DNA of 64,000 nt, from assembly GCF_910592395.1 (NCBI RefSeq), contig NC_088322.1, forward strand, positions 312,001 through 376,000, given 5' to 3'. The notes under the pieces are model-generated. The model was given only the letters and a program-made list of their open reading frames with translations, was not told the DNA's origin and did not search any database. The DNA is from Lineus longissimus. Taxonomy: Eukaryota; Nemertea; Pilidiophora; Heteronemertea; Lineidae. Of the stretch, positions 33,138-54,879 are shown piece by piece (the stretch's first letter is position 1; every line of letters starts with the position of its first letter). The position numbers were made by a program, and so were the translations under genes.

Positions 33138-33400
33138 AGAATATATGTATTGTGGTGGTAGGAATCTAGGTAATTCTAGGCTATTTTAACAAAAGCCCTT
33201 ACAGGCCTTTTTGTCTCAAAATAGCTAAGAAACCCCTAAGAACCAGACACCACAATACATATATTCTATCATTCATTAGATTCCCAGTGAAGCATTGCAA
33301 TGAAATGGTCAGTGAAATGGTAAGGGAATACTAGAGTTCAATGGGTTAATGTAATCATGACTTACTGTATTCCAACAGAAAGTACACGTCAATAGCTTTT
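33138..33400. repeat. Polinton-2 left TIR with terminal hairpin
   Basis: The outer 130 bp form a foldback: arms 33138-33157 and 33248-33267 (AGAATATATGTATTG...) are perfect inverted copies. The rest matches the reverse complement of 54617-54748 and 4815-4934. Confidence 0.88.
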
Positions 33401-33478
33401 TTCCGTGCATTTTACCTGATATATGATGTTGGCACTGTTCCCTGCATGTACATAATTTTACTAGTAAATAAATAGAAA

Positions 33479-34735
33479 ATGGCAACAGGATATTTATTAA
33501 ATACCGAAAGGGCACATAAGATTCTACTTGGTTTGAAAGCTGAGAGGCAGCATCATATCATTACTCATAACCCATCATCTGCTAACCCCAAAGAAACACT
33601 GTATGTTAGAATACCGGCATTGCGAGAGAATACATTCTTTGTACCTAAATCTCTTTATCTGTCTGCTGATGTAACCATTTCTGGTGATTCTTAAAATAGT
33701 GTTGTAAATAATCTTGGTAGAAACCTGATTTCAAAGATGGTGGTTAAGTGGGGAACAGAGCAGATATTTGACCTTGACGAATACAGTCATTATTCTACAT
33801 TTAAAGATCTGTGGTTTACAGAAGAAGAAAGAAATGATAGAGTTTTTCAGGGTATTCAGTCAAAAAATCTTAGAGAATTAAGATCAGGAGTCGCTGAAGC
33901 TGATGTCACTGGAGAAACAGCTAATGAAAAGACTTTAAAGAAAGTGTTTGACAAGAAGTACAAAATACCATTAGATTTTGAACTATTCCATCATCATGCT
34001 CCATTTTACAAGTTTCCAATTCAAGAAGATGTTATCATTGAAATAACTTTAGCACCAAAGGAGGAAATCATAGTCACCACAACCACAGCTAGCATGGGCT
34101 ACAAACTAGAGAATATTTGTTTTGAATATGATACCGTAGCCAACAAAATGATTGCTAGTCAATTGAGTAACAAGTACAATTCTGGATTCTCAATATTTTA
34201 TGATTGGGTAGACCATTTTAAGACAGTCAATGTTACTGCTAATGAAACACTAATTAATGAGAACATCAACTTTCCAAGAATGTCTATTAAAGGATTATTA
34301 TTACTATTTGTGTCTGACTATGTAGATGGAGCTAGAGATTCAGAGAAGTTTGAAAACCCTAACATAAGTAAAGTGCAGATCACAATAGAGGGTGTTGCCA
34401 ATCAGGTGTTCCCAGAAGGAATGAGAATGATGGATCAATGGGAGGAGATCAAGAAACATTTTATGTCTGAAGATTTGAAGAAAACTCATGACTGTAACAT
34501 GACCATGGAAAAATACTATGGTGATTCTAATCACTATGGTTTATGGTTGGACCTGAGAACTTCTGAGGATAATCGTCTTCACGGATCAGGAAAGAAGCTC
34601 CAGAACACAAAAGATGGTATTCAATTATCTATTACAAAGAAATCTGGAAAGGGACCATACAAAATGCACATATTCGTGGTTTCTGACGCCCAGGTAAACA
34701 TCCAGAATTCTCAGATTGCTTCACTCCAGCACTGA
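33479..34735 (+). pseudogene. MCP: Polinton major capsid protein, one in-frame stop
   Basis: A frame of 419 codons from ATG at 33479 to 34735, interrupted once by TAA at 33692-33694; both sides are in phase. Just after the stop comes NSVVNNLGRNLISKMVVKWG, a signature-like stretch of Polinton double-jelly-roll capsid proteins, and the length fits that family. The remaining part has alternating beta-like segments (DVIIEITLAPKEEIIV, GKGPYKMHIFVVSDAQV). The protein would form the hexon-like shell. No double-hairpin unit lies within the gene, although degenerate stem-1 hairpins (GAACAAAGTTC at 34746-34756) follow its 3' end. An internal ATG at 33737 could start a shorter product. Confidence 0.75.
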
Positions 34736-34847
34736 GGTGCTGCAAGAACAAAGTTCGCTCCAACACTGAAACAAAGTTCGTACAACACTAAATTAAATAC
34801 TGAATACTAGATAAATGAGTTTTACTAGTGATTTTCTAAGTAATTAA

Positions 34848-35084
34848 ATGGATTCACCAGGAAAGAAAGATATCATAAATTTACTGTATCAAAGTTTACT
34901 GTTGGCATCAACAACAATTGGTTACTCTATGTTACTGAAAAGGTTCTTGAGAATCAATATTGGTCCCCCAAGTCAGGCCAACCTAGAGGAAATTCTTAAA
35001 CTGGGAGGAACTGTAGCTATTAGTAATGGAACATTAGAGTACCTTTACGATCAAGGAATCCTACCCAGAAATATTATGAAGTAA
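34848..35084 (+). CDS. Small Polinton membrane protein, 78 aa
   Basis: Starts at AATTAAATGG. It has one hydrophobic stretch (LLYQSLLLASTTIGYSMLL) and then a short conserved-looking tail (LEEILKLGGTVAISNGTLEYL). It lies between the two capsid genes. I recall similar short proteins in this position in other animal Polintons but know no function. Confidence 0.55.
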   Translation: MDSPGKKDIINLLYQSLLLASTTIGYSMLLKRFLRINIGPPSQANLEEILKLGGTVAISNGTLEYLYDQGILPRNIMK

Positions 35085-35141
35085 GAATAATTTACTTATT
35101 TGATAAAAGCTAAATTTGAAAACGAAAATTTGCTTAAGTAA

Positions 35142-35909
35142 ATGGTTACTGTAATGAACATAGATTCAAGTGACTATCCAGATCAGAGTTCAAGTGATTT
35201 AACAGTCAATCTCAAGACTGAAATTCAGGATGCATGTAGCATCACTTTAACTTTTGCAGTAATACCTTGTACATTCTACAACATAAGTGCAGCCAGGGAG
35301 AATAACCGAATCAAAGTTAAGGGGTTTGATGTGGCAGAGATTACGCTACCAGATGGTCTCTATGACCTACAGAGCTTTTCAAAAGTATTTGCGGATAAGT
35401 TGAAAGAAAATAGTATGAGTAGAGGTGCTGTCAGATTTGACCTTGAAGAACCAACAGGTAAGGCCATCTTACACTTCCTAAAGAGAAAAAATGAGGCGCA
35501 TTATCAGATCTATTTTATTGGTAAAAGTAATGAATTATTTGGCATGAAATCAGAATGGCCTTACCCTTTAGACAATAAAAGTAAGGATGATGTTGTAAGC
35601 GAGAAACCCATCAATTTTAGACCAATTAACCATTTTGTTTTTCACTGTGACATAATCGAATCTAATAGTGTATTAAGTAATGGTGAAGCATCTGATGTGC
35701 TAACCACAAGACCAATAAAGGAAGCTAATTTTGGGGATTTAATAGCATACACATTTGAGAAACCAATAGCAATTCCCTGTAAACCAAGATTCAATGAGCT
35801 GAATATTCGCTTAACTGATGAAAAAGGTGAAATCATCGATCTTAATGGTCATAATGTACAGTACCAATTGGTATTAACTCGAGCTATGCTCTCAGGGACA
35901 CATCATTGA
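35142..35909 (+). CDS. Minor capsid (penton-like, single jelly roll) protein
   Basis: 255 aa, starting after CTTAAGTAA. The length, beta-rich pattern (DLTVNLKTEIQDACSITLTFAVIP; FNELNIRLTDEKGEIIDLNG) and position beside MCP and ATPase fit the Polinton minor capsid protein. The C-terminal RAMLSGTHH is encoded by a half copy of the double-hairpin unit (35879-35898), which has replaced the original end. The 343-aa protein at 44581 shares the closing motif (FEITDENGKLVNFRG). Confidence 0.62.
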   Translation: MVTVMNIDSSDYPDQSSSDLTVNLKTEIQDACSITLTFAVIPCTFYNISAARENNRIKVKGFDVAEITLPDGLYDLQSFSKVFADKLKENSMSRGAVRFDLEEPTGKAILHFLKRKNEAHYQIYFIGKSNELFGMKSEWPYPLDNKSKDDVVSEKPINFRPINHFVFHCDIIESNSVLSNGEASDVLTTRPIKEANFGDLIAYTFEKPIAIPCKPRFNELNIRLTDEKGEIIDLNGHNVQYQLVLTRAMLSGTHH

Positions 35910-35931
35910 AATTAAAATTCATTGGAATTAA

Positions 35932-36390
35932 ATGGCTGGCATTGGCATGTTATTTGGATCTGCAATAATCAATGGACTAGCATTCACTGGATCCGGTTAC
36001 CTTTTTAAAAAACTAGACAAGAATGGCTATGAGACTGAAGTGAAAAGACATGATTTGGCTCAAGAGCAATTGCAAAGAGCATCCACAGAATGGGATGAGC
36101 ATAGGAAAAGTACCATTGACTTCGTTAACCTTGAATTAAAGAGAGAAAGAGACGCTTCTATTGATTTTAACAATACTGATTCAGCACTTACTGTTTACAA
36201 TCATTTACATCCAGAAAGAACTATTGTACTACCTCAGCGACCACAATTAAGTGATTACTACCAACCTAGTGATGAAATGAAGAAATACGAGTACCTATGG
36301 ATTATCCTAGGACTTAGTGGTTTAGGGTTAATAATTTATTATTTTACTAGGGTTAGAAAGACTAAGACAACTGATCGGACACAGTCCTGA
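35932..36390 (+). CDS. Polinton two-helix membrane protein, 152 aa
   Basis: An N-terminal Gly/Ala-rich hydrophobic segment (GIGMLFGSAIINGLAFTGSGYLF), a charged coiled-coil-like middle, and a C-terminal membrane helix (YLWIILGLSGLGLIIYYFT) followed by basic residues. The last residues (TDRTQS) and the stop codon come from the hairpin repeat at 36374. It may be a virion membrane component; this is inference. Confidence 0.55.
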   Translation: MAGIGMLFGSAIINGLAFTGSGYLFKKLDKNGYETEVKRHDLAQEQLQRASTEWDEHRKSTIDFVNLELKRERDASIDFNNTDSALTVYNHLHPERTIVLPQRPQLSDYYQPSDEMKKYEYLWIILGLSGLGLIIYYFTRVRKTKTTDRTQS

Positions 36391-36434
36391 TGATCGGGCA
36401 CAGTCCTGATGATCGGACACAGTCCTGATGATGA
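36374..36434. repeat. Three stem-2-type hairpins at a convergent junction
   Basis: Three tandem units spaced about 20 bp, each GGAC/GTCC (one GGGC variant) with loop ACA followed by TGATGAT. They cover the end of the 152-aa gene and the gap to the end of the ATPase gene on the other strand. Confidence 0.85.
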
Positions 36435-36443
36435 GAAGCGGGA

Positions 36444-37064
36444 CTAAGATTTTTGATGGGAAAGAGTAAATCCAAATGGATGTTGTAGTCTAATGATCAG
36501 TTTTGATCCTTTTTTCATCTTAAGTTCTTCTATGTAGTACTGTCTTTTCTCCTTAGGAATAACACTGTTTTCTTCTAAGGCATCTTTCATGGCTGATTCA
36601 TCCTTATTAAAAAATAATACTAAAATTCTTATGTTCTCTCTGTAGTCCTTGACAACTGAATTGTACTTCTGAACTAGTAACCAAACAGTGAGATTGTAGT
36701 GCCTGCCGGAAAAGGCAAGATTACATAACTCGGACACCTTCTTTTTTGTGTCTCTCAAATTAGCACAGTCATCAATGAGGAATAATGTGTTAGAACCAGC
36801 AAAGGTCAGAGTAGCAAACTGAAGCACAAGGTCCAAATTACTGGCCACAGCTTCGGGATTAACTATGTAGACGTTCTTGTCTTGGTAAATCCATTTCCTT
36901 TCATATGTCTTATTGTTGAAATATGTTGGACAGAAAATGACTATGTTCTGGAACTTGTGCCGATACTCCTTTTCTAAGAGGTCAAGGGCAAAATATGTCT
37001 TACCACAATTGGTAACACCAGAAATTAACATATTGTGTGGCTCGTAAATAAATACTTCACTCAT
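36444..37064 (-). CDS. ATP: Genome-packaging ATPase (FtsK/HerA family)
   Basis: 206 aa. Walker A is GVTNCGKT (residues about 16-23), Walker B is TLFLIDDCAN (about 94-103) with the expected run of hydrophobic residues before the acidic pair; a conserved SGRHYNLTVWLLVQ stretch follows, as in the A32-like packaging ATPases of Polintons and large DNA viruses. Its start codon is only 4 bp from that of the divergent integrase gene (37064/37069). No hairpin unit lies within it. The frame is intact. Confidence 0.88.
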   Translation of the reverse strand: MSEVFIYEPHNMLISGVTNCGKTYFALDLLEKEYRHKFQNIVIFCPTYFNNKTYERKWIYQDKNVYIVNPEAVASNLDLVLQFATLTFAGSNTLFLIDDCANLRDTKKKVSELCNLAFSGRHYNLTVWLLVQKYNSVVKDYRENIRILVLFFNKDESAMKDALEENSVIPKEKRQYYIEELKMKKGSKLIIRLQHPFGFTLSHQKS

Positions 37065-37068
37065 TTAA

Positions 37069-38220
37069 ATGAATGTAAAGGATGACACACAGCAGTATCT
37101 AAGGGATTTGTACTACAACCCCGAGAGTCCCGTGGCTTACAGTTCTTTGAGTAAAATCTGGAAACAGGTCAAGGAAGATATGACTTCGTCACGAGAGCAG
37201 AGCACAACTTCGTTGTTAGGGACAAAGTCCCGCTCAGGAAAACTTATTAAACAAAAAGAAGTGAAAGAATTTCTAGAAACACTACCAACTCACCAACTAC
37301 ACAAACCGGCCATTAAGAAATTCACCTTCAGGAAGACATTGGTATCGTACATCGATCAACAATGGCAAGCAGATCTGGTTGACATGCAAAAATTTGAGAA
37401 ACAGAATAAGGGTTTCAGATTCATTTTAACAGTCATAGATCTATTTAGTCGTTTTTCTTGGGCTCTAGCAGTTAAGAGTAAGAGGGGAGAAGAAATCAGA
37501 GATGCATTTAAAGTGATATTTTAGGAAGCAAAACCAACGAAAATCCAGTTTGATGACGGTAAAGAATTTTACAACAAACACTTCAAGGAACTTTTAACAA
37601 AAAATGACATAGACTGGTTCTCCACAAAATCTGATAAGAAGGCAGCAGTAGTAGAGAGATTCAATAGAACCCTTAAAGAAAAAATGTGGCGTTATTTCAC
37701 CGCTAAGGAGACTGACAAGTGGATTGACGTTCTGGATGACCTGGTCAGCGGCTACAATAACACATTTCACTCATCAATAGGTATGAAACCTGTAGACGCC
37801 AGAAAGATGGAAAACGAAGGAACAGTGTGGTACAATCTTTACGGTCTTCACCTCAAAGAGACATTTGGTGATCCAAAGTACAAAGTAGGTGACAGTGTAA
37901 GAATTTCAAAGTACAAGTCCATTTTCGGTAAAGGTTACATGCCCAACTACACTGAGGAGGTGTTCCAAATCAAACAGATCATCTTTACTCACCCTATCGT
38001 CTACCAGCTTGAGGATTACCACAAAGAAGAAATTCAAGGATATTTCTATGAAGAGGAATTGAGCTATGTTCCTAATCCTGACCAGCTAGAGTACAAGATC
38101 GAGAAAATCCTAAGGTACAAGACCAGTAAAGGCAAGAAATACGGATTAGTGAAGTGGAAGGGTTACAGTGATAAGTTCAATGAATGGTTACCAGTTTCTG
38201 ATATCAAATCATTGAAATGA
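37069..38220 (+). pseudogene. INT: Polinton integrase with chromodomain, one in-frame stop
   Basis: A 384-codon frame, with TAG at 37522-37524 interrupting it once. In order: an N-terminal region with an in-frame hairpin-unit insertion (SSREQSTTSLLGTKSRSG), then a retroviral-type core with Asp in QWQADLVDM, Asp in IQFDDGKEFYN and Glu in AVVERFNRTLKE, an SH3-like stretch (YKVGDSVRISKYKSIFGKGY), and a C-terminal chromodomain (YKIEKILRYK ... LVKWKGYSDKFNEWLP). All three catalytic residues remain. The stop lies between the first and second, so a full product is not made unless it is read through. Confidence 0.85.
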
Positions 38221-38308: not shown

Positions 38309-39469
38309 ATGGATGGAGCAATATTTGATAATCAAAATGGTATGATGAATCAAAATGGTATGATGAATCAGAATAATATGATGAATCAGAATAATATGAT
38401 GAATCATGATAATATGATGAATCAAAATATTCAGAAGTTTTTGTATTATTTGCATCAAAATAATATGTTAAATCAAAATATGATAAATCAGATTATGTTA
38501 AATCAAAATATGATAAATCAGTTTATCTTAAATCAAAACATGGAAAATCAAAATATGATAAATCAGAATAATATGATGAATCAAAACATGGAAAATCAAC
38601 CTACATTTAAATGTGTTAAGTGCGATGTAACAAAACCTGAAATTAATTTTGAAAAGAACAGGCGTAATAAACTACTTGATTACTGTAAAGAATGTGGTTC
38701 AAGTAAAATCAAGGGATGTAATAAATGTTATGAAAATAAATTACTAAGTGATGGTGAATTTGGTAAAGACGGAAATAGAGGTAATTGCAGATCATGTTTT
38801 AATTCATATTACAAAAAGGATTACCTTGACCAAAATAGTAATAGAGACAGACACAAAATTAGAGTTGGTCTAAACCGCATTTCTAAGGGAGAGTGTAATC
38901 GAGCTCTGCTCTCAGGACGAAGTCTGACCGGTAATTCATCATTCAATCTAGGATGTACAGACAGTTTCTTCTCACAGTGGTTAGAGTACCAGAGGAGTCT
39001 ATCTCCAATAGGACAAAGTCCCGAGAACAGAGTTCGAATAGTAGAAGAAGAGTTGGATCATGTCTTACCAATCAAGGAATTCAAAGATAAACCTGAACTG
39101 TGCTTTGCTTGGTTTAACATTAGACCAATGTCTAAAACACAAAACAGACAGAAGAGAGCTAAAGTAGACTACACACTATTTAAGGATCAATTGGATAGGT
39201 CAATGGATTTCATGGTAAAAATGAGAAGTGAAAACTGGTTTGTCTTTCGAGACCAGGATGTAATACCAAATTGGAAAATAGTGATATCACAGCATTTCGG
39301 GGATTATCTTCGTGATGAAAATATGATTCTGCTTGATAGATTATCGAATTTAAATAATAACATGAGAATGAACCAGAACATTAACATATGTAGTCAGACA
39401 GAAATCATAAACGAGATGATTAAGTTGAATAATAGACTTGAAAGAAATTTACTCTTTGCAGTGAATTGA
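38309..39469 (+). CDS. HNH-type nuclease with Asn/Met-rich repeat and zinc fingers
   Basis: 386 aa. Residues 1 to about 97 are a low-complexity run of NQN-MM repeats. Then come three pairs of cysteines (FKCVKCD, YCKECG, GCNKCY, NCRSCF), suggesting treble-clef or zinc-ribbon folds. The C-terminal half has EELDHVLPIKEF and WFNIRPMSKTQNRQK, which match the DH...P...N..P...N..K layout of HNH nucleases. Two hairpin units lie inside it, translated as RALLSGRSLTG and GQSPENRVR, just before the HNH motif. It may act in recombination or end processing; function is inferred from the motif only. Confidence 0.6.
   Translation: MDGAIFDNQNGMMNQNGMMNQNNMMNQNNMMNHDNMMNQNIQKFLYYLHQNNMLNQNMINQIMLNQNMINQFILNQNMENQNMINQNNMMNQNMENQPTFKCVKCDVTKPEINFEKNRRNKLLDYCKECGSSKIKGCNKCYENKLLSDGEFGKDGNRGNCRSCFNSYYKKDYLDQNSNRDRHKIRVGLNRISKGECNRALLSGRSLTGNSSFNLGCTDSFFSQWLEYQRSLSPIGQSPENRVRIVEEELDHVLPIKEFKDKPELCFAWFNIRPMSKTQNRQKRAKVDYTLFKDQLDRSMDFMVKMRSENWFVFRDQDVIPNWKIVISQHFGDYLRDENMILLDRLSNLNNNMRMNQNINICSQTEIINEMIKLNNRLERNLLFAVN
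38899..39038. repeat. Double-hairpin units in the HNH gene
   Basis: A forward unit at 38899-38928 and an inverted unit at 39009-39037 with the GAAC/GTTC form of stem 1. Confidence 0.88.
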
Positions 39470-40551: not shown

Positions 40552-40681
40552 ATCGAACTTTGTTCTCTGGACGTAGTCCTAATCGAGCTATGCTCTCAGG
40601 ACAAAGCTCGACTCGAGCTATGCTCTCAAGACGTAGTCGGACTAGGACAAAGTCCAGAGAGCAAAGCTCGACTCAAGCGAA
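40552..40681. repeat. Array of double-hairpin units between convergent genes
   Basis: Four to five units in both orientations, with stems GAAC/GTTC, GAGC/GCTC and GGAC/GTCC, fill the space between the 219-aa gene and the 3' end of polB. The final unit overlaps the last codons of polB. Confidence 0.9.
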
Positions 40682-43600
40682 GTTTGAATCGCTGTAATCT
40701 ATGTAGCCTTCATAATACATTCCAAATGGTAAGGTGCTTATTCCATCTTCAAGTATGAACCTCTTGTCATCAAAAGGACTGTGGCTTTTTTTGTCAACTT
40801 CTTCCAAATAGATTTGGTGTTTATCTGATCTTAAGTGTCTCATCTTGTGGTAAAATGACCTACTCTTTTCAAGACAATCAACATAGTCATCAAATGAGAT
40901 ATTTCTCCTTACTACATTCTTGGCAATACCCTTCAATTTCTTAGAATCGTAATCTTTTGTCGATCCTTGCTCTCCAGACATAGTCTTGGTCCTGTAAGCG
41001 TACATCTTACTTCTCAGGGCAATGAATTCAGTCATCTCTACTCCTCCTAGCTCATCCTTAAAGTAGCCTGGTACCTTCTTCTTACTGGTGTCATAGAGTG
41101 TATGATCTTTTGGATAATTACTGAAGTCAAAATAGTGTTTCAACTCCTTTAAGTCTTTAGTTAAGTCATCAGTATTAATGTTAAGTACAAAGGAATCTGT
41201 ATCTAGATACAGTAGTTCAATATTTTTCTCACCAAAGTACGGTTGAAGAACTTCATAATAGAATTCATACATTAATAATTTAGACAATTCAAGTACTGAA
41301 GCTCCTATGTAGATTGGTTTGTTGAATTTCATTGATGTTTTCCTCATGCTAATAGCAGCATTATGTTCGTCAAATACGCATATCGATGAAAACCTGGGAT
41401 TGGCCATTACATTCCTGGCTCTCTCCCCGTCCGATACAAATTCAATTTCAACCCTGTTCCTTACATTCTCACAAGTTTTTCCATAGAACGCATTGTTCAT
41501 CAGTTTAAAATAGTCTTTCTCAAAATCAGTCTTAGAGTCCATACGTCTTTTAGTGTTAAAATCAATGTATGGTGCTAACCACTTTGATTGTTTAAAGCTT
41601 ATCACTGAATGAACCCTCTTAAGTACCATTCCGTGCTTGAGATAAAATTGTAGCATTTTGTAATGCACTATGTAATTAGTTTTATCCTTTTGTGTTAGTA
41701 TTAGTTTCTCTACATTTGATCTTTTATCATCACCCAGTAACTCTCTCTGGTAAGGACTTAATTCATCATCTTCAATAAAGAGAGATTCGGGACAGAATGG
41801 AAAGTTCCTTGACTTAAATTTAATATTTCCTGGATACTCCAAATCAACCTGTAAGAAGTAGCCTACTTCACTATCACTTGGAATTGCCATAATCTGCTCT
41901 TTACTGATAACATTCATGTTAAGTCGAGCTTTGCTCTCGGGACCTTGTCCTAGTCGGACTTTGTCCTGAGAGCATAGCTCGAGTGGATCAATATCTATCA
42001 TTTCAAAACTACCATAGGGTTGAGGTTCCATCATGGACCAGCCGTAGAGATTATTTGCGTCTACGTAGAGTAGTTTGTGGTGTTCATCTGCCTTGACATG
42101 TCTTGTTCCCATAACACCCGAAATTCCACCTCGTATTGCTTTCTCAAAAGTAAGTAAGATGTTGGTATCAGTCAGTAGTTCTAGGTTTATTCCTGTGTAC
42201 TTCAAACCAGCTTGCCAGGTTAGGCCTGGTGCCGAGTAACAGTGACAGGGATCTATCTGAAAGTAGTTCAAATTGACATCCCTGAATTTCTCAAATAAAT
42301 CAGCTAAAAGGATCACATCAGTTTTGAGGTAGAGGTCAATGAACTCACCGTGATTCCTGATCTTGAAATGATCCCATATTACCTTAGCCTCATCATAGGC
42401 AGAATCAGGTGCCATTTCATTTTTCAATTCGTCAAAAAACATAGACTTTTCTAGGTAAGTAACATTGTAGCTTTCATGTGATGTGTAAAAAGAGTAAGGT
42501 ACTGAACCCTTCTTCCTCAATAGCTTAAAGTCAGTGGTATTTGGGAACAGCTGTCTGGTAATTTTAAAATCATCATCCAACATTGATTTGGTTATGTTGT
42601 CTAAACTGGACTGCAGGAATCTGTACGAGTCCAAAAACCTGAAACAACCGAACTGAAATGAAATGTATTCCTCTGATGTTTTGGCAAGTATTTTCAGTTT
42701 CTTGTACTTCGGTAGCTTATTCATTAATTCTTTAATAAATAAGTGAGAATCGTAATTACTGAGATTGTGAAAAAACACTGGAACAAACATAGCTTTCTTT
42801 TCATTCAAATTACACGAGTTGTGAGCAGCACCTCGATATCTACCACAGTAGTGATCATGATCCTTGACCTTGTCATAACCCAAAGGTTGATTACAATAGT
42901 AACAATGTGTTTCTAATTGATATTTATGCCAGTCTTCATCTGTCATTGTTAGAGGAAAGTTACAGTTCAATAAATTGGAGAATTGTTCTTCCATCCTGAT
43001 TAACCAATTACAGAACACATCTACAACATCAGCACCCCTGTGAGACACATACTGGCTACTGTAAAGGTGTGTGTAGTCTGAGTGAACATAAACACCAACA
43101 GCTGATGCATTTTGTTTAAAAAGTTTCTTTGAACTCGGTTCTTTCATCATAGGTGGCTCTACTGATACTACTGGTATGTTGCCTTCGGCAGAAGAACAAG
43201 GTTCGCTTATCGCTTCGAAATCAGCATAGATCACAAACGGAACTCTATTTTTGAATGAGTGTTTTTCAAATTTAATTTGTGACCATTTACTGTTAGGTGT
43301 AGGCAAAGTAATCTTACAGTAATCGTGTTCTCCACATTTCTTTTTATGTTTATCTAGTGTTGACTTCCTGTAAAAGTAATTCATGCATCTCCTGCAAAGA
43401 TACACTCTATGAGCTAGTGTCCTGAAGAAAAGATTGATGTCTCTTATGTACATGAAATGGTCCTTGAAATACAACAGATCGATGACATCATCATCATCAT
43501 AATTCTTGGACAGGTAGAGAGGTTCTAGTTTTGCCTCACAGGTGCTCTTAGCCCATTCGTTCTCTAACTTGAACACATTAATCTTGAGATTATTATCACT

Positions 43601-44557
43601 CTCTATCTTAGGGATATCCTTTTGAATACATACAGGAAATGATTTGATTTGTACTCCGTACTGAGAGCAGAGCTCGATTTTGATATCAGTAGTTTTCGAA
43701 CTCTGTTCTCGTGACGAAGTCATTTCTAGCATATCGGTAGTGATATTGAATGTACTCTCGAGCTCTGCTCTCAGGACAAAGTCCGTCTCTGGATTTTCTT
43801 TCAGATATTTAGCGGCCAATAAAGACCAGAGAAAACATTTATTGTCATTTGATTCCACATTTATTACTGCTTTTGTTTTAAATGGTAATTTAGTGTAATG
43901 ACCACCTTTACACCTCTTGTAAGAACAGATGGTCATGTTACAAGACTCTATTTTATTTAAAGTAAGTCCAGAACCTTGAAAGTACCTTTCCTCAATCTGT
44001 GTCTTAATGTAGTTTAACTGGTTGGTTATGGCATAAATTGCCTGGTTCCTTGAAATTATGCTTTCCATTGGAGACTGTATGGGGTGTGTTACACTTTCAC
44101 CCTGACGATCAATGCTCTGCTCTTCGACCAAAGGTCGATCAAACTGAGCAAATACTGATATGCTAATTTTGTGATGGTAATCATTGAGTTGAAATAATAC
44201 CTCCTCTAATTTATCTCTGTATTCATACACTTGTTTAGCTTCTCTGTCAATCTTCAAACTAATGGTGACTACAGGCTTTCCAAATTGTTTTACTATTTCT
44301 ATTCCACTCACTTTCTTTATGCCATCTAGCTCATTTTCCTCAAATGCAAGTTTCTTATCCATAGTTTTAGGGATCAGTGATGGGGCTCGGGGTTGAGCAA
44401 TAGGGACATAATCCGGATTTAATTTACTTAAGTGACCTTTGGTTCTCCTGTGAATGGCCATATTATTGTATGATATGTACTTGTCACATGTAGTGCAAAG
44501 TATTTTCTGATTCTTATCAGTCATTCTATTTATTAGATTAAAATTTATTAAATTCAA
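40673..44557 (-). CDS. POLB: Protein-primed family-B DNA polymerase
   Basis: An intact 1294-aa protein. A C2H2 finger lies near the N-terminus (CTTCDKYISYNNMAIHRRTKGH). The middle has a cysteine/histidine cluster (CYYCNQPLGYDKVKDHDHYC), typical of Polinton and related PolB. Exonuclease motifs include PFVIYADFEAI and DLYLKTDVILLADLF. Polymerase motifs: LLYVDANNLYGWSM (motif A), KLMNNAFYGKTCENVRNR (motif B), ELLYLDTDSFVLNI (motif C, DTDS). Four hairpin units add in-frame peptides: DFVLRAELE, SREQSSK, IELCSQYG and LELCSQDKVRLGQGPESKAR, between folded blocks. It replicates the element with a terminal protein primer. The gene starts 23 bp from the divergent 343-aa gene. Confidence 0.93.
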   Translation of the reverse strand: MNLINFNLINRMTDKNQKILCTTCDKYISYNNMAIHRRTKGHLSKLNPDYVPIAQPRAPSLIPKTMDKKLAFEENELDGIKKVSGIEIVKQFGKPVVTISLKIDREAKQVYEYRDKLEEVLFQLNDYHHKISISVFAQFDRPLVEEQSIDRQGESVTHPIQSPMESIISRNQAIYAITNQLNYIKTQIEERYFQGSGLTLNKIESCNMTICSYKRCKGGHYTKLPFKTKAVINVESNDNKCFLWSLLAAKYLKENPETDFVLRAELESTFNITTDMLEMTSSREQSSKTTDIKIELCSQYGVQIKSFPVCIQKDIPKIESDNNLKINVFKLENEWAKSTCEAKLEPLYLSKNYDDDDVIDLLYFKDHFMYIRDINLFFRTLAHRVYLCRRCMNYFYRKSTLDKHKKKCGEHDYCKITLPTPNSKWSQIKFEKHSFKNRVPFVIYADFEAISEPCSSAEGNIPVVSVEPPMMKEPSSKKLFKQNASAVGVYVHSDYTHLYSSQYVSHRGADVVDVFCNWLIRMEEQFSNLLNCNFPLTMTDEDWHKYQLETHCYYCNQPLGYDKVKDHDHYCGRYRGAAHNSCNLNEKKAMFVPVFFHNLSNYDSHLFIKELMNKLPKYKKLKILAKTSEEYISFQFGCFRFLDSYRFLQSSLDNITKSMLDDDFKITRQLFPNTTDFKLLRKKGSVPYSFYTSHESYNVTYLEKSMFFDELKNEMAPDSAYDEAKVIWDHFKIRNHGEFIDLYLKTDVILLADLFEKFRDVNLNYFQIDPCHCYSAPGLTWQAGLKYTGINLELLTDTNILLTFEKAIRGGISGVMGTRHVKADEHHKLLYVDANNLYGWSMMEPQPYGSFEMIDIDPLELCSQDKVRLGQGPESKARLNMNVISKEQIMAIPSDSEVGYFLQVDLEYPGNIKFKSRNFPFCPESLFIEDDELSPYQRELLGDDKRSNVEKLILTQKDKTNYIVHYKMLQFYLKHGMVLKRVHSVISFKQSKWLAPYIDFNTKRRMDSKTDFEKDYFKLMNNAFYGKTCENVRNRVEIEFVSDGERARNVMANPRFSSICVFDEHNAAISMRKTSMKFNKPIYIGASVLELSKLLMYEFYYEVLQPYFGEKNIELLYLDTDSFVLNINTDDLTKDLKELKHYFDFSNYPKDHTLYDTSKKKVPGYFKDELGGVEMTEFIALRSKMYAYRTKTMSGEQGSTKDYDSKKLKGIAKNVVRRNISFDDYVDCLEKSRSFYHKMRHLRSDKHQIYLEEVDKKSHSPFDDKRFILEDGISTLPFGMYYEGYIDYSDSNFA
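41923..41984. repeat. Inverted pair of double-hairpin units inside polB
   Basis: One forward unit (loop TTT) directly abuts one reversed unit, so the 60 bp can fold into one long foldback. It lies between motif A and the next conserved block. Confidence 0.9.
43660..43786. repeat. Three hairpin units inside polB in three frames
   Basis: Half a reversed unit at 43661-43680, a GAAC/GTTC unit at 43697-43725 and a GAGC/GCTC unit at 43757-43786, translated as ELCSQ, SREQSS and DFVLRAELE respectively. Confidence 0.9.
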
Positions 44558-44580: not shown

Positions 44581-45693
44581 ATGGACTTCATAATCAATGA
44601 ACAAGAATGTAATGAAGCCAAATTTGAGTACTACTTAACAGACCAATTAGACATAAAATCCATTACTTTGAAATCGATAACCTTTTACAATTCATGGTGG
44701 ACAGGTGATTTTCTACCAGAGGGAGTAAGGATTTTCTCATTTCTAGTCGAAATAACCAGAATTACAACACATGAGCCCTTAGATAAACAATTATGGTGTA
44801 GGACATTATTTGCTCCTGGACTTGAAACAGATACACTTGAAAAGGAAGTCATGAAAATTTGCGAACGGCATTTGGAAAATGATTCTACCACAACTAAAGA
44901 CACCATTACTCAATACACATTTCCATACTCTCGACATTTTAGTTTAAGTGAGTTTTGTGAGGTATGGCAAAAATACATAAAAGAAATTGGAATTAGCCAT
45001 GTGAAAATTTACTGTGATAACAATAATTACATAACCCTTGAACTTACAGAGGATAAAGAGTACCCTCTGAAAGTGGACAAGTTAGATAAAAATGAAAAAA
45101 TCAAGATTGAGAGAAACACAGAAGGTTTTCAAATAAGCAAAACCATAAGAGAGGTGATAGAAAAACAGCTCACAGTGGTGAATGAGTGGTTTGGCTTTAA
45201 GCAAACTAAATTCACCAAGAAAGGAAAATACTACTCCACAAGACCACTCAACTTTTACAGGAAATATCTATTCCTGCAAGCTAATTTGGTTGACAAAGCT
45301 AAGACCCTCTACAACAATAAACCATCTAACATTTTCTGCATCATACCTGTAGAAGATGGTGACCAAATAAAAATGCAGCGATACGAACCGAATAGTAAGA
45401 AAACGATAAATAAGTGTACTAATCACATAAAATTCGAAATCACTGATGAGAATGGTAAGCTAGTTAATTTCAGAGGAACAGAGGTTTTTTTAGAGTTAAG
45501 AATCGAGCTATGCTCTCAGGACGAAGTCCGAATAGAGTTAAACTCTCAGGACAAAGTCCGAATAGAGTTAAACTCTTGTGGTGAAGACAAGCACCTCGGA
45601 CTCGAGCTCTGATCTCAGGACGAAGTCTGACTAGGACAAGGTCCCGAGAACAAAGTTCGACCACCTGATGAGATCATTCCATTAAAGGAATAG
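44581..45693 (+). pseudogene. Second minor-capsid-like protein, C-terminus broken by hairpin units
   Basis: The open frame is 343 aa and stops at 45612. The same frame continues, through one more stop, to PPDEIIPLKE and TAG at 45691-45693, which looks like the original end. The body is beta-rich, starts FIINEQECNEAKFEYYLTDQ and includes KSITFYNSWW and FEITDENGKLVNFRGTEVFLE, resembling penton-type minor capsid proteins and the 255-aa neighbour. After the last strand, five tandem or inverted hairpin units (45502-45661) encode IELCSQDEVR-type repeats; a base change in the fourth unit creates the TGA. A homologous tail (EIIPLK) occurs on the minus strand at 54016-54105. Confidence 0.6.
45502..45661. 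repeat. Array of five double-hairpin units
   Basis: Period about 30 bp. Stem 1 appears as GAGC/GCTC, then twice as GAGT/ACTC, then GAGC with a broken partner, and finally inverted as GAAC/GTTC. Stem 2 is GGAC/GTCC in most. The array lies at the junction of convergent genes. Confidence 0.92.
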
Positions 45694-46240
45694 TACATTT
45701 CTTCTCTTTAACTACAGGTTTAACAAGAGGGTTAATTGATCCCTTCATGACTGCTTCATTCGGACTTTGTCCAGAGAAAAAAGTTCGATTAGGACTTTGT
45801 CCTGAGAGCATAGCTCGATTCAAGCCTGATCGCTGCTCTTTACTTACTTTTTTAGGAAGTTTCTTAAACATAATGAATGCTGCTAAAATAACGGCACCTA
45901 AACCGAGTACATAGACATAAGTATTACTACTAGATTCACGCAGTGATACATCAGTATTTTGAGATTGTGGTTCTTCTTCCTCTACTTCTTCTTCCTCCTT
46001 TTCCACAACTCTGTTTTTTGGTGAGGAGTCCTGTACTTTAAATGTCGTCTTATCCTTTTTTATCCTCTTAAATTCCTTAGATCTTCTACCCAGTTCTCTA
46101 GACCATGCTAATTGTTTCTCTGATCGAGGTTTCTTAGACACTGAAACTTTAGTCGAACTTTGTTCTCGGGACGTAGTCCTAGTCGGACTTTCTCCTGAGA
46201 GCATAGCTCGAGTAGTATCAGTTACAGTTTCAAGTTCCAT
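45674..46240 (-). CDS. Polinton single-pass membrane protein, 188 aa
   Basis: N-terminal hairpin-encoded residues (RAMLSGESPTRTTSREQSST), a basic stretch (KKPRSEKQLAWSRELGRR), an acidic Glu run, one membrane helix (YVYVLGLGAVILAAFIMF), then a basic segment and two more hairpin units translated as RAMLSGQSPNR and FFSGQSPNE. The ending KKCTIPLME overlaps the end of the convergent gene. No family recognised. Confidence 0.55.
   Translation of the reverse strand: MELETVTDTTRAMLSGESPTRTTSREQSSTKVSVSKKPRSEKQLAWSRELGRRSKEFKRIKKDKTTFKVQDSSPKNRVVEKEEEEVEEEEPQSQNTDVSLRESSSNTYVYVLGLGAVILAAFIMFKKLPKKVSKEQRSGLNRAMLSGQSPNRTFFSGQSPNEAVMKGSINPLVKPVVKEKKCTIPLME
45759..45822. repeat. Two double-hairpin units in the 188-aa gene
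   Basis: Inverted units with stems GGAC/GTCC (loop TTT) and GAGC/GCTC (loop ATA); one stem 1 is broken (GAAA/GTTC). Confidence 0.88.
46151..46213. repeat. Inverted pair of double-hairpin units
   Basis: A forward unit with GAAC/GTTC and GGAC/GTCC, immediately followed by a reversed unit with GAGC/GCTC. It encodes the N-terminal region of the 188-aa protein. Confidence 0.9.
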
Positions 46241-46288
46241 TTATCTTGCTCAAATTAATTCGAACTATGTTCTCATAACCAGGTTAAT

Positions 46289-47131
46289 TTAGTCTTCTTT
46301 ATCATCACTACCTGTGATATCTAGACTTTCATCTATTGGTTTGTCACATTCAGAGACAGTCATATTTGGTGTATTAATATTTGATGCAGTCATACTCGAT
46401 GTATTCATAGATGATTCCTCATGACAATGACCTAAAGTAATAAGTGTTGTTGAGGCAAGTGCAGTTAGTGCACCCATTCTCAAACTCAACCATCCAAGCC
46501 ATTTATCCAACTCGTTAGTTATCAAATAATCATTTCTAAGATCATGGTAAAGATCATCTTCATCATCTATTGGTAATAACCACCTTGATAATTTAGTGTA
46601 AGCTTTAATTACTGTCTTACCCAAAGAATCATTAAGTCTGGCAGCCATCTTTGTTTCATACATTCTATGGTGTTTTAAGATTTCTTTTTCATTCATATTA
46701 TCTAAGTCATTAAAAGTTATTTGTTTATTAAGGAAATCCTTGCTTTTACCAGTTGCAACTAGAATCTCTAAGTCTTGTTTGGCTTTAAGGCCACTATCAG
46801 TCAAATAGTTCAAATTTTGTTGATTGCTACTTGAACCTTGTTGATTGCTAGTTGATCCTAGTTGGTAACTAGAATTGACTATTCCTTGACTGGGATTAAC
46901 TATTCCCTGACTAGGAGTAACTAAATTTAAATTATTCAACTGCTTGTTTGAAACTTGTTGATTTGTAGAACAGTTCTGTTGAAAATTAGTTCTGTTTTGT
47001 TGGTAATTACCAGTGTTCTGTTGGTTAGAAGCCCCAACTCGAGCTAAGCTCTCAGGACTCATAACACCAATCTGTTTCATCTGTTGTTCAATCACTGCAG
47101 ATGTCTGACTATTCATTTGCTGATTATTCAT
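46289..47131 (-). CDS. Gln/Asn-rich Polinton protein, 280 aa
   Basis: The N-terminal third is Asn/Gln-rich (SNQQNTGNYQQN ...); the C-terminal half is a more regular domain (AARLNDSLGKTVIKAYTKLS ... LGWLSLRMGALTALASTTL) with one hydrophobic stretch, ending in an acidic Ser/Thr tail. A partial hairpin unit at 47037-47058 gives MSPESLARVG. A degenerate stem-1 hairpin (GAAC-TAT-GTTC, 46258-46268) follows the gene. No family recognised. Confidence 0.5.
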   Translation of the reverse strand: MNNQQMNSQTSAVIEQQMKQIGVMSPESLARVGASNQQNTGNYQQNRTNFQQNCSTNQQVSNKQLNNLNLVTPSQGIVNPSQGIVNSSYQLGSTSNQQGSSSNQQNLNYLTDSGLKAKQDLEILVATGKSKDFLNKQITFNDLDNMNEKEILKHHRMYETKMAARLNDSLGKTVIKAYTKLSRWLLPIDDEDDLYHDLRNDYLITNELDKWLGWLSLRMGALTALASTTLITLGHCHEESSMNTSSMTASNINTPNMTVSECDKPIDESLDITGSDDKED

Positions 47132-47202: not shown

Positions 47203-47263
47203 ATCGAGCTATGCTCTCAGGACGAAGTCCGGCTCGAGCAGAGCTCTCAGGACGAAGTCCGGC
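47203..47263. repeat. Two tandem double-hairpin units
   Basis: Counterpart of 71-130. The second stem-1 loop is AGA here versus TGT there; the stems are unchanged. Confidence 0.9.
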
Positions 47264-50885: not shown

Positions 50886-50975
50886 GTCGGACTTCGTCCT
50901 GAGAGCTCTGCTCGAGTTGAGCTTTGCTCTCTGGACTTTGTCCTAGTCGGACTTCGTCTTGAGAGCAGAGCTCGA
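50886..50975. repeat. Three double-hairpin units replacing coding sequence
   Basis: Reversed, reversed-degenerate and reversed units in a row, translated on the minus strand as RALLSRRSPTRTKSREQSST and RAELSGRSPT. Polinton-1 has unrelated sequence of similar length here. Confidence 0.9.
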
Positions 50976-51111
50976 TCCATAACCCTAGGACGAAGGAATC
51001 CAGTAAGATTCTCATTGTTCCACTCACTAGAATAATAGTCTTTTAATGAGATGTATTTATTCATATTTACATAATAATTATTTTTTAAACATTGTTTTGA
51101 TAGAAGGTCAC

Positions 51112-52575: not shown

Positions 52576-52585
52576 AATTACTTAT

Positions 52586-53977
52586 TTATCTAACCATAAA
52601 AACAATCAATGTACCAACAACTGAGTAAAGCATGAATTTAATTGTTTCACGAGTATCATCCACCTTCTCAACTTTGGTGTCAAGTTTAGTAGTAGTAGGA
52701 ATATTCTTTGAGGTTTCAGTTGTTTTTGGTGAATCAACATTACTCTTTGGTTTATGACTGGTCTCGAGCTTTGCTCTCAGGACGAAGTCCGACTTGACAG
52801 TACCAACACTACTCTTAACTCTTATTTTCTTAGAACTATTTCCTTCCATCAGTGGTGGTGGTAAGGTCTTTTTGTGGTTAATGTCATTCTTACCGGGTTT
52901 TGCATTTTTTGGTGCTATTAAAATGTTATTATTGTAGTTATCCAGCTTACCAATAACGAGTACCATATTTGATCCTATGACATACAATCCTGGTGCTATT
53001 ACATAATCTAGTCTTGTATGAGTGTCACTCACTGCTTTTTGATATCTTTGAATTGAAGTGGGAATATCAGGATGTTGATTAATCGAGTCCTTTAATAGTT
53101 TGTTAAATTCCTTCTGTGCATCCAATTCTGTACCCGGTACTCCAATCATTGGTGTTCTGGTCAACGCCTGAGCACCCAGAATACAGTAAACATATGTTCT
53201 TATTGTATCATTCAACCTCTCTATTCCAGGATTAGAGAAACCATTTGATTTAAATATCATGCATTGTTGATAGGTTTGACATTCATTTTGTGTAATTACA
53301 TCAAATACATTCTTGTGTCTCCTGACATGATCCTTGATGAAAATATCTGGATATTTGAAATTAGCCATTCCAGCATCCCAGTCTTTACTGAACATCGGTG
53401 GCATTCTATTTTCATGAACTTGCATGAGGAAGAAATTGATTTTAGAATCATTGATGTAATATCCGGGATCAGTTATGTTCGGGTTGTAATCCGGTACACT
53501 CCATGACCTCCAACCACCGTTATTTTCAAACACCGAGAAATCGTACTCGTCTTTTAAACCAAATTCACTCAATAACCCTCCTAGTTTCCTACGGTTAATG
53601 TTATTGTTTGTCTCATTAAAATCACTTTCACCTGGAATTGGTATCTCTAGATTCTTCATGATCTTCAATATTTGATAGTAAACGTGAAACCTGTAAATTG
53701 ACCTTAACAATGGGTCACTGTGATTCAAGTGATCGTCTATTGAAATACCACAACCTGTTGTAGCAAACCAAACAGCCATGTTAAATTGGTTCTGGTAAAA
53801 CGATAATGGATTCTTTTCCAGTCGCAGACAGTCTTTCTTATTTTTCAGGCTCAAAAACCCAGGTGTTATCTTAGTTTCTTGTAGTCTGAAGAAGTTATTA
53901 GTATTAACAGTTACTTCTAAATTAAAGAAGTCATAGGTGAATTTACTTTTATGTTGATTTGCTATTGGATAAAACAT
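52586..53977 (-). CDS. Conserved Polinton protein, 463 aa, C-terminal membrane anchor
   Basis: Counterpart of 2878-4263, intact, start in AAGTAAATTAAATG. Same globular body and C-terminal helix. It is the outermost gene before the right end. Confidence 0.75.
   Translation of the reverse strand: MFYPIANQHKSKFTYDFFNLEVTVNTNNFFRLQETKITPGFLSLKNKKDCLRLEKNPLSFYQNQFNMAVWFATTGCGISIDDHLNHSDPLLRSIYRFHVYYQILKIMKNLEIPIPGESDFNETNNNINRRKLGGLLSEFGLKDEYDFSVFENNGGWRSWSVPDYNPNITDPGYYINDSKINFFLMQVHENRMPPMFSKDWDAGMANFKYPDIFIKDHVRRHKNVFDVITQNECQTYQQCMIFKSNGFSNPGIERLNDTIRTYVYCILGAQALTRTPMIGVPGTELDAQKEFNKLLKDSINQHPDIPTSIQRYQKAVSDTHTRLDYVIAPGLYVIGSNMVLVIGKLDNYNNNILIAPKNAKPGKNDINHKKTLPPPLMEGNSSKKIRVKSSVGTVKSDFVLRAKLETSHKPKSNVDSPKTTETSKNIPTTTKLDTKVEKVDDTRETIKFMLYSVVGTLIVFMVR
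52763..52793. repeat. Double-hairpin unit inside the 463-aa gene
   Basis: Same unit and frame as at 3055-3084. Confidence 0.9.
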
Positions 53978-54015
53978 TTAATTTACTTGAATTTTTTCCT
54001 TGAATTTTGGTTAAT

Positions 54016-54105
54016 GAAGACAGTAAAAAGACCATTTATTTTAATGGAATAATCTCACCAGATGGAGGAAGTGTGACGTTAACATCATGTCTCCATGGAC
54101 AGAAT
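54016..54105 (-). other. 90-bp insertion with a minor-capsid-like gene tail
   Basis: The segment is absent from Polinton-1, where TTGGTTAAT joins directly to AACATTTGCC. On the minus strand it reads DVNVTLPPSGEIIPLK and a stop, resembling the PPDEIIPLKE end found at 45660-45693. It is either a relic lost from Polinton-1 by deletion between short AAT repeats, or a captured piece. Confidence 0.6.
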
Positions 54106-54265
54106 AACATTTGCCTTTAAACCATAGTGATATTCAGTTGTACAATGGCCATATCAGATGTTGCAGTAATTAATTATTTGTGCTTGCAAATTACAATGGC
54201 CATATCAGATGTTGCAGTCATTAATTATTTTTGCTTGTCAAAGACATGAAAAGGCCTATTGTATC

Positions 54266-54370
54266 TTAATGCGTTTATCCGACAGAATTTTCGAAAATAT
54301 TTTCAGCGCTGAAAATTATTTTTGCGTCGTTAAAATAATTTCTCGAAATTCTGTCGGATAAACGCATTAA
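54266..54370. repeat. Large palindrome near the Polinton-2 right end
   Basis: Counterpart of 4462-4567 with the same 25-bp arms; the stem-adjacent bases change in a way that improves pairing (TTTTCGAAAA / TTTCTCGAAA). Confidence 0.85.
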
Positions 54371-54616
54371 CGAACAATAGACCTTTGTAATACTTTGGGA
54401 CGTGAGTATTGTTTGGTAACATATGTTACCATGTACATGCAGACTCTGTCAACAATATTTTCAATAGATTCAAGCAACAATGATTAATCACTGTATCAGC
54501 TGTCGTGTAGGCCTACAGCATTTATTGGAATACGCTGGGACTGTCAAGATGTGCGAACTTCAAGGGTTCATTTCTCTGCTATTTTTTAACGGATATTTGC
54601 AATGATGTATCCTTGG

Positions 54617-54879
54617 AAAGCTATTGACGTGTACTTTCTGTTGGAATACAGTAAGTCATGATTACATTAACCCATTGAGCTCTAGTATTCCCTCACCATT
54701 TCACTGACCATTTCATTGCAACGCTTCACTGGGAATCTCATGAATGATAGAAAGTGTATATTGTGGTGGATTGGTTCTTTGGGGGTTGTAGGCTTATTTG
54801 GGGCAAAAAGCCTGTAAGGGCTTTTGATCAAAATAGCTTAGAATTACCTACATTCCTACCACCACAATATACACTTTCT
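54617..54879. repeat. Polinton-2 right TIR with a distinct terminal hairpin
   Basis: The inner part matches 33268-33400 in inverse. The outer 131 bp form a hairpin with 21-bp perfect arms at 54749-54769 and 54859-54879 starting AGAAAGTGTATATTG, versus AGAATATATGTATTG in the other two ends. Confidence 0.88.

Follow-up and report, generated by a model that had tools for sequence, protein, structure and literature searches.

A 27-bp double-hairpin unit with a 3-bp target duplication in the Polintons of Lineus longissimus

Two Polintons lie in the window, the 64-kb stretch of Lineus longissimus DNA analysed here (C15:312001-376000), and both carry copies of a short double hairpin, some of them inside protein genes. 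What is this unit, how did it reach these places, and does it belong to the Polintons or to the genome at large? According to an earlier note on this DNA, the Polintons have been colonised by a mini-element that is compatible with coding. This proposal is supported, since units present in one Polinton copy are absent from another and are flanked by exact duplications of the target, which shows insertion.

Structure, number and distribution of the unit

The unit is 27 bp long, C-GAGC-nnn-GCTC-TCA-GGAC-nnn-GTCC-G, with a direct repeat of 3 bp (mostly A-N-T) on either side. It consists of two hairpins, each with a 4-bp stem and a 3-nt loop, and a 3-nt spacer between them. The two-hairpin design had been described before with a length of about 30 bp; the design stands, and the length resolves into a 27-bp unit plus a 3-bp target duplication, which is why adjoining copies are spaced 30 bp apart. 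One insertion is thus a step of 30 bp and adds ten residues to a protein. The ends were C..G, C..T or C..A in 250 of 274 units, and the two ends are similar as a short inverted sequence (CGAGC / CGGAC). The stems covary, with 36 two-sided changes across 88 distinct sequences; shuffled sets averaged 7.9 such changes and reached at most 14. With DNA folding parameters, the canonical unit forms two hairpins on either strand at -4.1 kcal/mol, and five single units showed a modest gain over shuffles (z -1.1 to -2.9). An Rfam scan of the window gave 0 matches at the gathering score.

Copies were found by plain pattern scans and stem-pairing scans. In a comparison with shuffled sequence, as proposed earlier, the pattern GAGCNNNGCTCTCAGGACNNNGTCC with at most 3 mismatches gave 28 matches in the window against 0.00 expected (100 shuffles). 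The looser stem-pairing scan gave 36 rows, or 35 places once a palindromic double match was merged; three simple letter shuffles of the window gave 2, 0 and 1 matches. The earlier count of about three dozen copies agrees with these 35 places, several of them old or diverged, and drops to 28 at the stricter threshold. In the whole genome, 3009 copies were found at up to 2 mismatches, and the reversed-pattern control gave 0.

The bulk of the units in the window lies in a large Polinton at 33138..54879 (inverted repeats 33135-33399 / 54617-54882). Its Pfam matches are Pox_A32 ATPase, DNA_pol_B_2 and Chromo, with rve below the cut-off. The end piece of a second Polinton on the minus strand (1..4263) has ORFs of 380, 316, 186 and 461 aa and four units. 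Unit matches were confined to 72-3082 and 35881-52790, and the scan found no unit at 4264-33134 or beyond 54882. The view that units occur only within the two Polintons therefore holds for the rest of the window, although four copies (72, 102, 1123 and 3058) fall outside the range 33138..54879 given for them. No unit was present in the approximately 38 kb of host DNA that the window contains, nor in one control stretch of 9.9 kb, so the equal density in host DNA that would speak against the proposal was not seen; the other Polintons sampled do carry units. Of the 100 perfect copies among the matches listed, 98 lay within the Polinton stretches analysed and the other 2 at most 300 bp away. Together with the genome count, these data support confinement, and we consider it very probable that the element is restricted to Polinton DNA.

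Exact matches to the unit pattern numbered 0 in IMG/VR and 0 in the GTDB species genomes, and blastn of one array against phages gave no match. A regular expression for the unit-like peptide found none among 120 listed of 4586 PolB relatives. A single-protein query returned no PolB relatives from IMG/VR; a search with an alignment returned two distant contigs, and a loose scan found no unit in either. Nine of the 20 Polinton stretches (window included) were also screened with 12-base words for other dispersed mini-elements. The words whose positions were checked proved to be ordinary tandem repeats, of 18 bp and of 15 bp, within the gene for the HNH-like protein; stretches L016 and L017 contained repeated 12-base words as well.

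Insertion sites, arrays and reading frames

The insertion survey took in the window and 19 Polinton stretches (L-numbered) of the same genome, with 212 arrays in all. Arrays were merged into sites by one matching flank, which fuses some neighbouring sites, so the resulting 53 sites are a lower bound. An empty allele in another Polinton was found at 36 of the 53 sites, an exact 3-bp duplication at 34 and both at 31; 17 sites had no empty allele among the stretches seen. For 40 of the 212 arrays, the empty allele was identical over all 60 flanking bases (0 mismatches). The duplication was 3 bp at every site where it was exact. In 21 of the 34 units of the window the 3-bp repeat stood at one and the same offset; unrelated offsets gave 0-3. 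At unique sites the target began with A in 30 of 35 cases and ended with T in 33 of 35 (binomial 5e-11 and 5e-15). The exact outer repeat was present in 99 arrays and absent from 113, some of which are composites of adjacent insertions or decayed units. When 18 Polinton stretches were aligned in pairs, which are not independent of one another, gaps of 30 bp (372) ranked second in frequency, behind those of 1 bp (637) and ahead of those of 3 bp (251). Stretches L025 and L026 differ by 0.54%, and one site is filled in one and empty in the other. Empty alleles with exact duplications show clean insertion events, neither slippage nor codon usage. The element is almost certainly mobile and makes a 3-bp duplication of its target.

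The PolB ORF (1283 aa, 40673..44524, minus strand; Pfam DNA_pol_B_2 3.5e-19) has many insertion sites. At 41925..41981, two units of opposite orientation have AGT at three of three junctions; L013 has the exact empty site, and L011, L022 and L026 have a single-unit allele. At 43650..43676, a minus-strand unit with a GTAC/GTAC stem 2 is flanked by ATT, and the exact empty site exists in L018, which also has the empty site for a diverged plus-strand unit without target duplication (40961..40987). Of two further plus-strand units, that at 43759..43785 has TCT as its duplication, and that at 43697..43723, in the SREQSS frame, is older, without duplication and with no empty site seen. The 343-aa ORF holds two plus-strand units at 45504..45560 (AAT at every junction; the second with a GAGT/ACTC stem), and its end is spanned by two units of opposite orientation at 45603..45659. 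In the 188-aa ORF, two minus-strand units at 45761..45817 have ATT at every junction, and two opposite units at 46154..46210 have AGT at every junction, with the exact empty site in L013 and a single-unit allele in L019, L022 and L027.

Two tandem plus-strand units in the 380-aa ORF of the second Polinton (71..127, GCT at three of three junctions) have a homologous site at 47205..47261, also with two tandem plus-strand units, where the array length ranges from 1 to 7 among the copies seen. Nine arrays of mixed orientation share one trinucleotide across all n+1 junctions, which shows repeated insertion into one target; 22 of 48 multi-unit arrays lack a single trinucleotide throughout. The element re-enters its own target duplications and so builds arrays. 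A four-unit array (+++-) lies at 40554..40670. Alleles may also have been transferred among Polintons by recombination or gene conversion.

Several units have decayed. The 255-aa protein ends in a decayed plus-strand unit (35880..35906) that is perfect at the same place in L032, and the decayed plus-strand unit of the 280-aa ORF (47040..47066) is a full unit with duplication ACT in L013. A weak, diverged minus-strand unit, in which 14 of the 19 fixed positions match and stem 1 does not pair, ends the 152-aa ORF (36376..36402), a diverged minus-strand unit without remaining duplication lies in the N-terminal integrase ORF (37180..37206), and a degenerate plus-strand unit lies between the 188- and 280-aa ORFs (46261..46287), with no empty allele seen.

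The units translate as parts of unrelated proteins. In the HNH-like ORF, the plus-strand unit at 38900..38926 reads RALLSGRSLT and is missing in L010 and L026; a minus-strand unit of GAAC/GTTC type at 39010..39036 is flanked by AAT, with the exact empty site in L015. A plus-strand unit in the 380-aa ORF (1122..1148, duplication ACT) reads DFVLRAELE and its site is empty in L023, and one in the 463-aa ORF (52765..52791) reads DFVLRAKLE. The 461-aa ORF contains a plus-strand unit at 3057..3083. The three-unit array (-+-) at 50888..50974, in a 294-aa protein homologous to the 380-aa one, translates as RALLSRRSPT RTKSREQSST RAELSGRSPT. Altogether, the PolB, N-terminal integrase, HNH-like, 343-, 188-, 280-, 380-/294- and 461-/463-aa ORFs contain units, which between them represent both orientations and each of the six phase classes, in line with the earlier description of many ORFs and several frames. 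That description also set MCP and ATPase apart as free of units, which we confirmed for the 332-aa 'MCP' in 7 stretches including the window and for the ATPase in 9 stretches.

The reading frame was left open by 183 of 186 in-gene units. This count was taken from gene matches flanking the arrays and not from open frames, because a count based on ORFs is partly circular, an ORF being by definition without a stop. In the phase where a TCA spacer would read TGA, none of the 37 units can carry it and 36 are open; the sole stop-bearing unit of the 37 has a TCG spacer.

Possible routes of movement

Overall, the best explanation is probably a non-coding mobile element with a 3-bp target duplication that is parasitic on Polintons, with movement by a single-strand route suggested. 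The element would be a non-autonomous parasite of the Polinton. The moving form is probably a folded single strand, exposed as Polinton DNA replicates by protein-primed strand displacement. The Polinton would most likely provide the nuclease or recombinase, which would cut ANT with a 3-nt stagger, and gap filling after the cut would give the duplication of 3 bp. Restriction of movement to replicating, extrachromosomal Polinton DNA would account for confinement. We put forward the single-strand, Polinton-supplied route tentatively. A candidate nuclease is the 386-aa protein (38309..39469, plus strand), which by eye has CxxC pairs and an HNH-like motif. It had no HNH match in Pfam, homologue searches found none for it or for the 380-aa protein, and tblastn of it against phages gave nothing usable. 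Structure models of the two proteins were too poor, with mean pLDDT values of 34.3 (HNH-like) and 36.6 (380-aa).

A conventional cut-and-paste or copy-paste transposase, from the host or the Polinton, could instead recognise the CGRRC-like ends of a double-stranded element. The constant 3-bp duplication, chiefly at A-N-T, and the short inverted similarity of the ends fit this explanation, and some members of the IS5-like, PIF/Harbinger and CACTA groups leave duplications of this length. We consider it unlikely, as 27 bp would be very short for the synapsis of two double-stranded ends and a longer relative of the element was not met in the Polinton stretches examined. Furthermore, the only transposase in a Pfam scan of 17 distinct ORFs (those of 487, 463 and 294 aa not among them) is of pogo/Tigger type (48197-49801, within the large Polinton), and such transposases duplicate TA.

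The hairpin could also be inserted as an RNA copy or by template switching of a polymerase, with no dedicated nuclease. Covarying stems fit RNA equally with DNA, and PMC2800124 states that an RNA route had been suggested for the double-hairpin elements of Allomyces. There the suggestion is based on absent flanking duplications, whereas duplications are common here; moreover, the A-N-T preference indicates an enzyme. This route is improbable.

It is very hard to believe that the units are immobile and that slippage, unequal crossing-over and gene conversion carried them from Polinton to Polinton. Array length does vary at 17 of the 53 sites, with up to 7 tandem units, but these processes by themselves do not create new sites at which the trinucleotide is exactly doubled and the empty allele survives intact, nor arrays of opposite orientation with identical junctions. 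Slippage or gene conversion alone was rejected for the gain of sites and retained as a contributor to array length. Equally slight is the case for selected functional sites, such as packaging, replication or protein-binding signals: the stems are conserved and covarying, but unit numbers and positions differ between copies as close as L025 and L026, which makes fixed functional sites unlikely. An origin by chance from codon usage is refuted by the zero expectation in the window shuffles and the zero genome control, and is practically impossible.

Returning to the Polinton-parasitic element, it may possibly live as an obligate hyperparasite on a virus-like element of animals; it would then move only while Polinton DNA is extrachromosomal and live in Polinton genes by its 30-bp step and stop-free variants. 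It would also be among the smallest DNA elements known with a target duplication, and its insertion pattern would naturally record the replication of Polintons as viruses. To our knowledge, the viral replication stage of Polintons has never been directly observed in animals. If all copies are confined, the long-standing question of extrachromosomal viral replication by animal Polintons becomes testable by sequencing. At 27 bp the unit is much too short to encode a transposase and barely exceeds a protein-binding site, yet it behaves like a transposon with a clean 3-bp duplication. The ten-residue blocks added to viral proteins are an unusually clear case of protein-length evolution by insertion under a stop-codon filter.

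Comparison with known systems

The earlier note knew of nothing similar in an animal transposon, and the open-licence literature searched likewise contained no described equivalent in animal nuclear or viral DNA; within that literature, the unit would have no precedent as a small hairpin mobile element of nuclear virus-like animal DNA. The nearest designs are organellar. For the mitochondria of fungi and sponges, PMC10085805 and PMC2800124 describe short hairpins or double hairpins that occur in several copies, with tandem insertions and some in genes; the stems of the sponge elements are more constant than the loops. The Polinton unit shares with them two adjacent hairpins, tandem insertions and some copies in genes. 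It differs in its location in nuclear virus-like elements, in the many units inside protein genes and in the fixed 30-bp step. Allomyces double-hairpin elements, as presented in the relevant passages of PMC2800124, are without flanking duplications, unlike the Polinton unit with its 3-bp duplication (34/53 sites). The same passages describe yeast mitochondrial GC clusters as small hairpin elements that are rich in G+C and believed to move in the form of DNA. These clusters differ from the Polinton unit in compartment and sequence. They have a short target duplication.

The likeness to Rickettsia palindromic elements noted earlier holds for behaviour and not for kinship. Those elements, according to the sections on them in PMC10969869 and PMC2229807, are inserted in frame in many unrelated protein genes, as is the Polinton unit, and measure 105-146 or about 150 bp; a table of PMC2229807 gives their duplication as '?'. 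The Polinton unit is 27 bp long with a 3-bp duplication, and, unlike these bacterial elements, its pattern had 0 exact matches in the GTDB species genomes. REP/REPIN are palindromes of 20-40 bp, hypothesised in the corresponding part of PMC3733652 to be mobilised in trans and at times located within ORFs. Unlike them, the Polinton unit has no GTAG/CGTC tag and frequently shows a target duplication. RAYT transposases act on single strands. The 17 distinct ORFs scanned had no Pfam match to a tyrosine transposase (RAYT, Y1 HUH). Very small mobile repeated elements of about the size of the Polinton unit are cyanobacterial, whereas the Polinton unit is animal and nuclear. Pandoravirus DNA transposons are far larger than 27 bp, with classical inverted repeats, and colonise a large DNA virus; the Polinton unit is likewise a DNA element colonising a virus-like host. 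Finally, the constant length of its 3-bp duplication, exact at 34 of 53 sites, resembles that of a MITE of a DDE transposon family.

Copy number and distribution of the unit

The pattern described in the earlier note, two hairpins (GAGC/GCTC and GGAC/GTCC) joined by a TCA spacer, does recur in Polinton DNA. At up to three mismatches, the window gave 28 matches, and the expectation from 100 shuffles was 0.00. A looser scan, in which stem pairing was scored as well, gave 36 rows for 35 distinct places, since one was matched on both strands. In genome G000 (391,118,348 bases in 30 contigs), where the window occupies C15:312001-376000, 1508 + 1501 matches were found at up to two mismatches, compared with 0 + 0 for the reversed pattern.

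Perfect matches among those listed numbered 100: C1 has 89 of them, apparently every one on that contig, and C2 has 11. Ninety-eight lay inside stretches with Polinton genes; one of the other two fell in a 99-base gap separating two Polinton stretches, and the last was 276 bp past the end of another. The window holds a large Polinton at 33138-54879 and the end of a second at 1-4263. No unit was present at 4264-33134 or 54883-64000, which bears out the claim that the rest of the window is free of copies, and the control stretch L028 had neither a unit nor a Polinton gene. The listed perfect places, the window and the control stretch so far point to a restriction to Polinton DNA. Exact searches of IMG/VR and GTDB genomes with the unit returned 0 matches, phage records gave none with one array as the query, and Rfam had no match for the element. 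The unit peptide was absent from 120 PolB relatives among the matches listed. Four PolB relatives from other sources (P0002, P0004, P0005 and P0006) contain other short repeated insertions, EVHERSEVHE, SRESRVESLESRE, NVNTS and NGETSALL, which may be further mini-elements in other Polintons.

Several further features were recorded. Several Polintons of this family (L015-L023, L031 and L032) are clustered within about 230 kb at G000:C1:12888000-13121900. The large Polinton in the window contains a pogo/Tigger-like transposase ORF of 534 aa at 48197-49801 (DDE_1, Tc5 DNA-binding and CENP-B N domains), and an inverted repeat of 77 nt with a 5-nt loop lies near its right end at 54239-54397. Two near-identical stretches about 8.5 kb apart (21916-28000 and 30413-33000) appear to hold a Gypsy-type retrotransposon polyprotein and a 270-aa zinc-finger-like ORF, both named by eye.

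Insertion sites and anatomy of the element

The units arose by insertion, not by coincidence. Nineteen unit-bearing stretches from C1 and C2, each 8-10 kb long (L009-L027), were sampled together with L028. Polinton genes were found in all 19, of which L016 and L017 belong to a more distant Polinton. These stretches and the window contain 286 units in 214 arrays, 212 of them with usable flanks, and the 212 arrays fall into 53 sites. At 36 sites another Polinton carries the empty allele, at 34 at least one copy has an exact 3-bp duplication, at 31 both are present, and at 17 the array length varies. For 40 of the 212 arrays, the joined flanks equal an empty allele over the full 60 bases, and the trinucleotide is there only once. 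L025 and L026 diverge by 0.54% over 8133 aligned bases and already show three gaps, each a multiple of 30 bp and between 30 and 120 bp long; one of these gaps, at L025:2707, is a single site that is filled in one stretch and exactly empty in the other. When 18 Polinton stretches were aligned in pairs, a motif-independent count over non-independent pairs, 30 bp was the second most frequent gap length (372 gaps, vs 637 of 1 bp and 251 of 3 bp). Counting against insertion, the exact outer duplication is missing in 113 of the 212 arrays, and the old units at window positions 46262, 43698, 37181 and 35881 have neither a duplication nor an empty allele.

When 34 window units were aligned with their flanks (the weak copy at 36377 excluded), the three bases before and after the unit were identical in 21 units at a single offset; the two neighbouring offsets, which overlap the same repeat, gave 12 each, and unrelated offsets gave 0 to 3. 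Because this identity peaks at one offset, the element is 27 bp long, C-GAGC-nnn-GCTC-TCA-GGAC-nnn-GTCC-G, and each insertion adds 30 bp, the element plus the 3-bp duplication. Among unique sites, the oriented target is A (30/35), N, T (33/35), and the next two positions are purines at 27 and then 32 of 35 sites.

Identical trinucleotides occupy all n+1 junctions in 26 of the 48 arrays of at least two units. Nine of the 26 contain both orientations, and several of these arrays represent a single site shared by different Polintons. Slippage cannot produce mixed-orientation arrays with one junction trinucleotide and is ruled out as their origin; the element therefore re-inserts at its own duplicated target. 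Slippage may also lengthen same-orientation arrays of near-identical units (up to seven, in L022).

Stem variation and the coding filter

The survey of variants scored 274 units, 12 weaker ones being left out. Stem 1 also occurs as GAAC/GTTC, stem 2 as AGAC/GTCT, TGAC/GTCA and GTAC/GTAC, and the spacer as TCG, TCT and TCC. Two-sided stem changes numbered 36 among 88 distinct sequences, a count inflated by kinship of copies; 500 shuffles averaged 7.9 and reached at most 14. Of 46 variants whose stems were both intact, 27 recurred at more than one site, vs 8 of 42 with a broken stem (Fisher 2e-4), near-consensus sequences being commoner for other reasons too. These data only suggest that the fold matters for movement. 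Counting against the reading as a whole, at least one stem pair is broken in 42 of the 88 sequences, and the folding of single units gave a modest gain over shuffles.

Read in one of the antisense phases, the TCA spacer becomes TGA. With every site-spacer combination counted once, TCA occurred in 0 of 16 combinations of this phase, vs 16 of 29 outside open frames (Fisher 2e-4). A non-circular test used only arrays with hits of one Polinton gene on both flanks, whether open or not; 96 units not so flanked were left out. Stop-free units made up 183 of 186, and the three stops, all in mutated units, fell at the end of the stem and never in the spacer. In the critical phase 36 of 37 units were open, so none of the 36 can carry TCA; the remaining unit has a TCG spacer.

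The claim that the MCP and ATPase genes lack units held: they contain 0 of 46 coding sites, vs 4.8 expected from length (P 0.006), a test weakened because fewer copies were sampled for the Polinton's left part than for its right, and no unit occurred in MCP-like (7 stretches with hits) or ATPase (9 stretches with hits) genes. The labels MCP and minor capsid go back to the earlier note and to how the sequence looks; Pfam gave no match for either.

The effect on coding is seen directly in the 380-aa protein, whose longer homologues have or lack blocks of ten residues at several positions and come in total lengths of 380, 409, 410 and 430. This protein (window 49-1191) contains two CxxC pairs, with predicted helices after them, and in a poor model may resemble a transcription factor combining a zinc ribbon with a helical part; the homologue search returned none. 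A unit forms the C-terminus of the 255-aa capsid-like protein (window 35880-35906; L032:1736-1760); it is perfect in L032 and decayed in the window and six other covering loci, with two matches in L021. The start of the HNH-like gene (window 38341-38583) carries an 18-bp tandem repeat (NQNNMM); at the corresponding place in L015 and L023 lies an unrelated 15-bp repeat.

Possible route of movement and known relatives

Any mechanism must explain why the duplication is 3 bp long and falls mostly at ANT, why there are two hairpins whose stems covary, how the element re-inserts beside itself, and the restriction to Polinton DNA observed so far, as well as an element length that leaves no room for a gene and makes synapsis as double strand difficult. 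The Polinton carries a PolB gene. PolB-type polymerases use protein primers and displace long single strands. A strand displaced during Polinton replication would fold, exposing the double hairpin to a nuclease. Among the Polinton's products is an HNH-like protein (motif seen by eye), and PolB contains a weak endonuclease VII match (6e-4, below its cut-off); either may be the enzyme. We tentatively favour such a non-autonomous, Polinton-supplied single-strand route, which we hold to be somewhat less than an even chance. A conventional double-strand transposase is a less likely alternative, and it would have to synapse this short length.

Among the open-licence papers listed on Polintons with palindromes, hairpins, short repeats or the host worm, no description of the element was found. 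The nearest kinds are fungal and sponge mitochondrial double-hairpin or repetitive hairpin elements, yeast GC clusters, bacterial REPs and Rickettsia palindromic elements. The present element fits their general description and differs from them in compartment, size, target duplication or tag.
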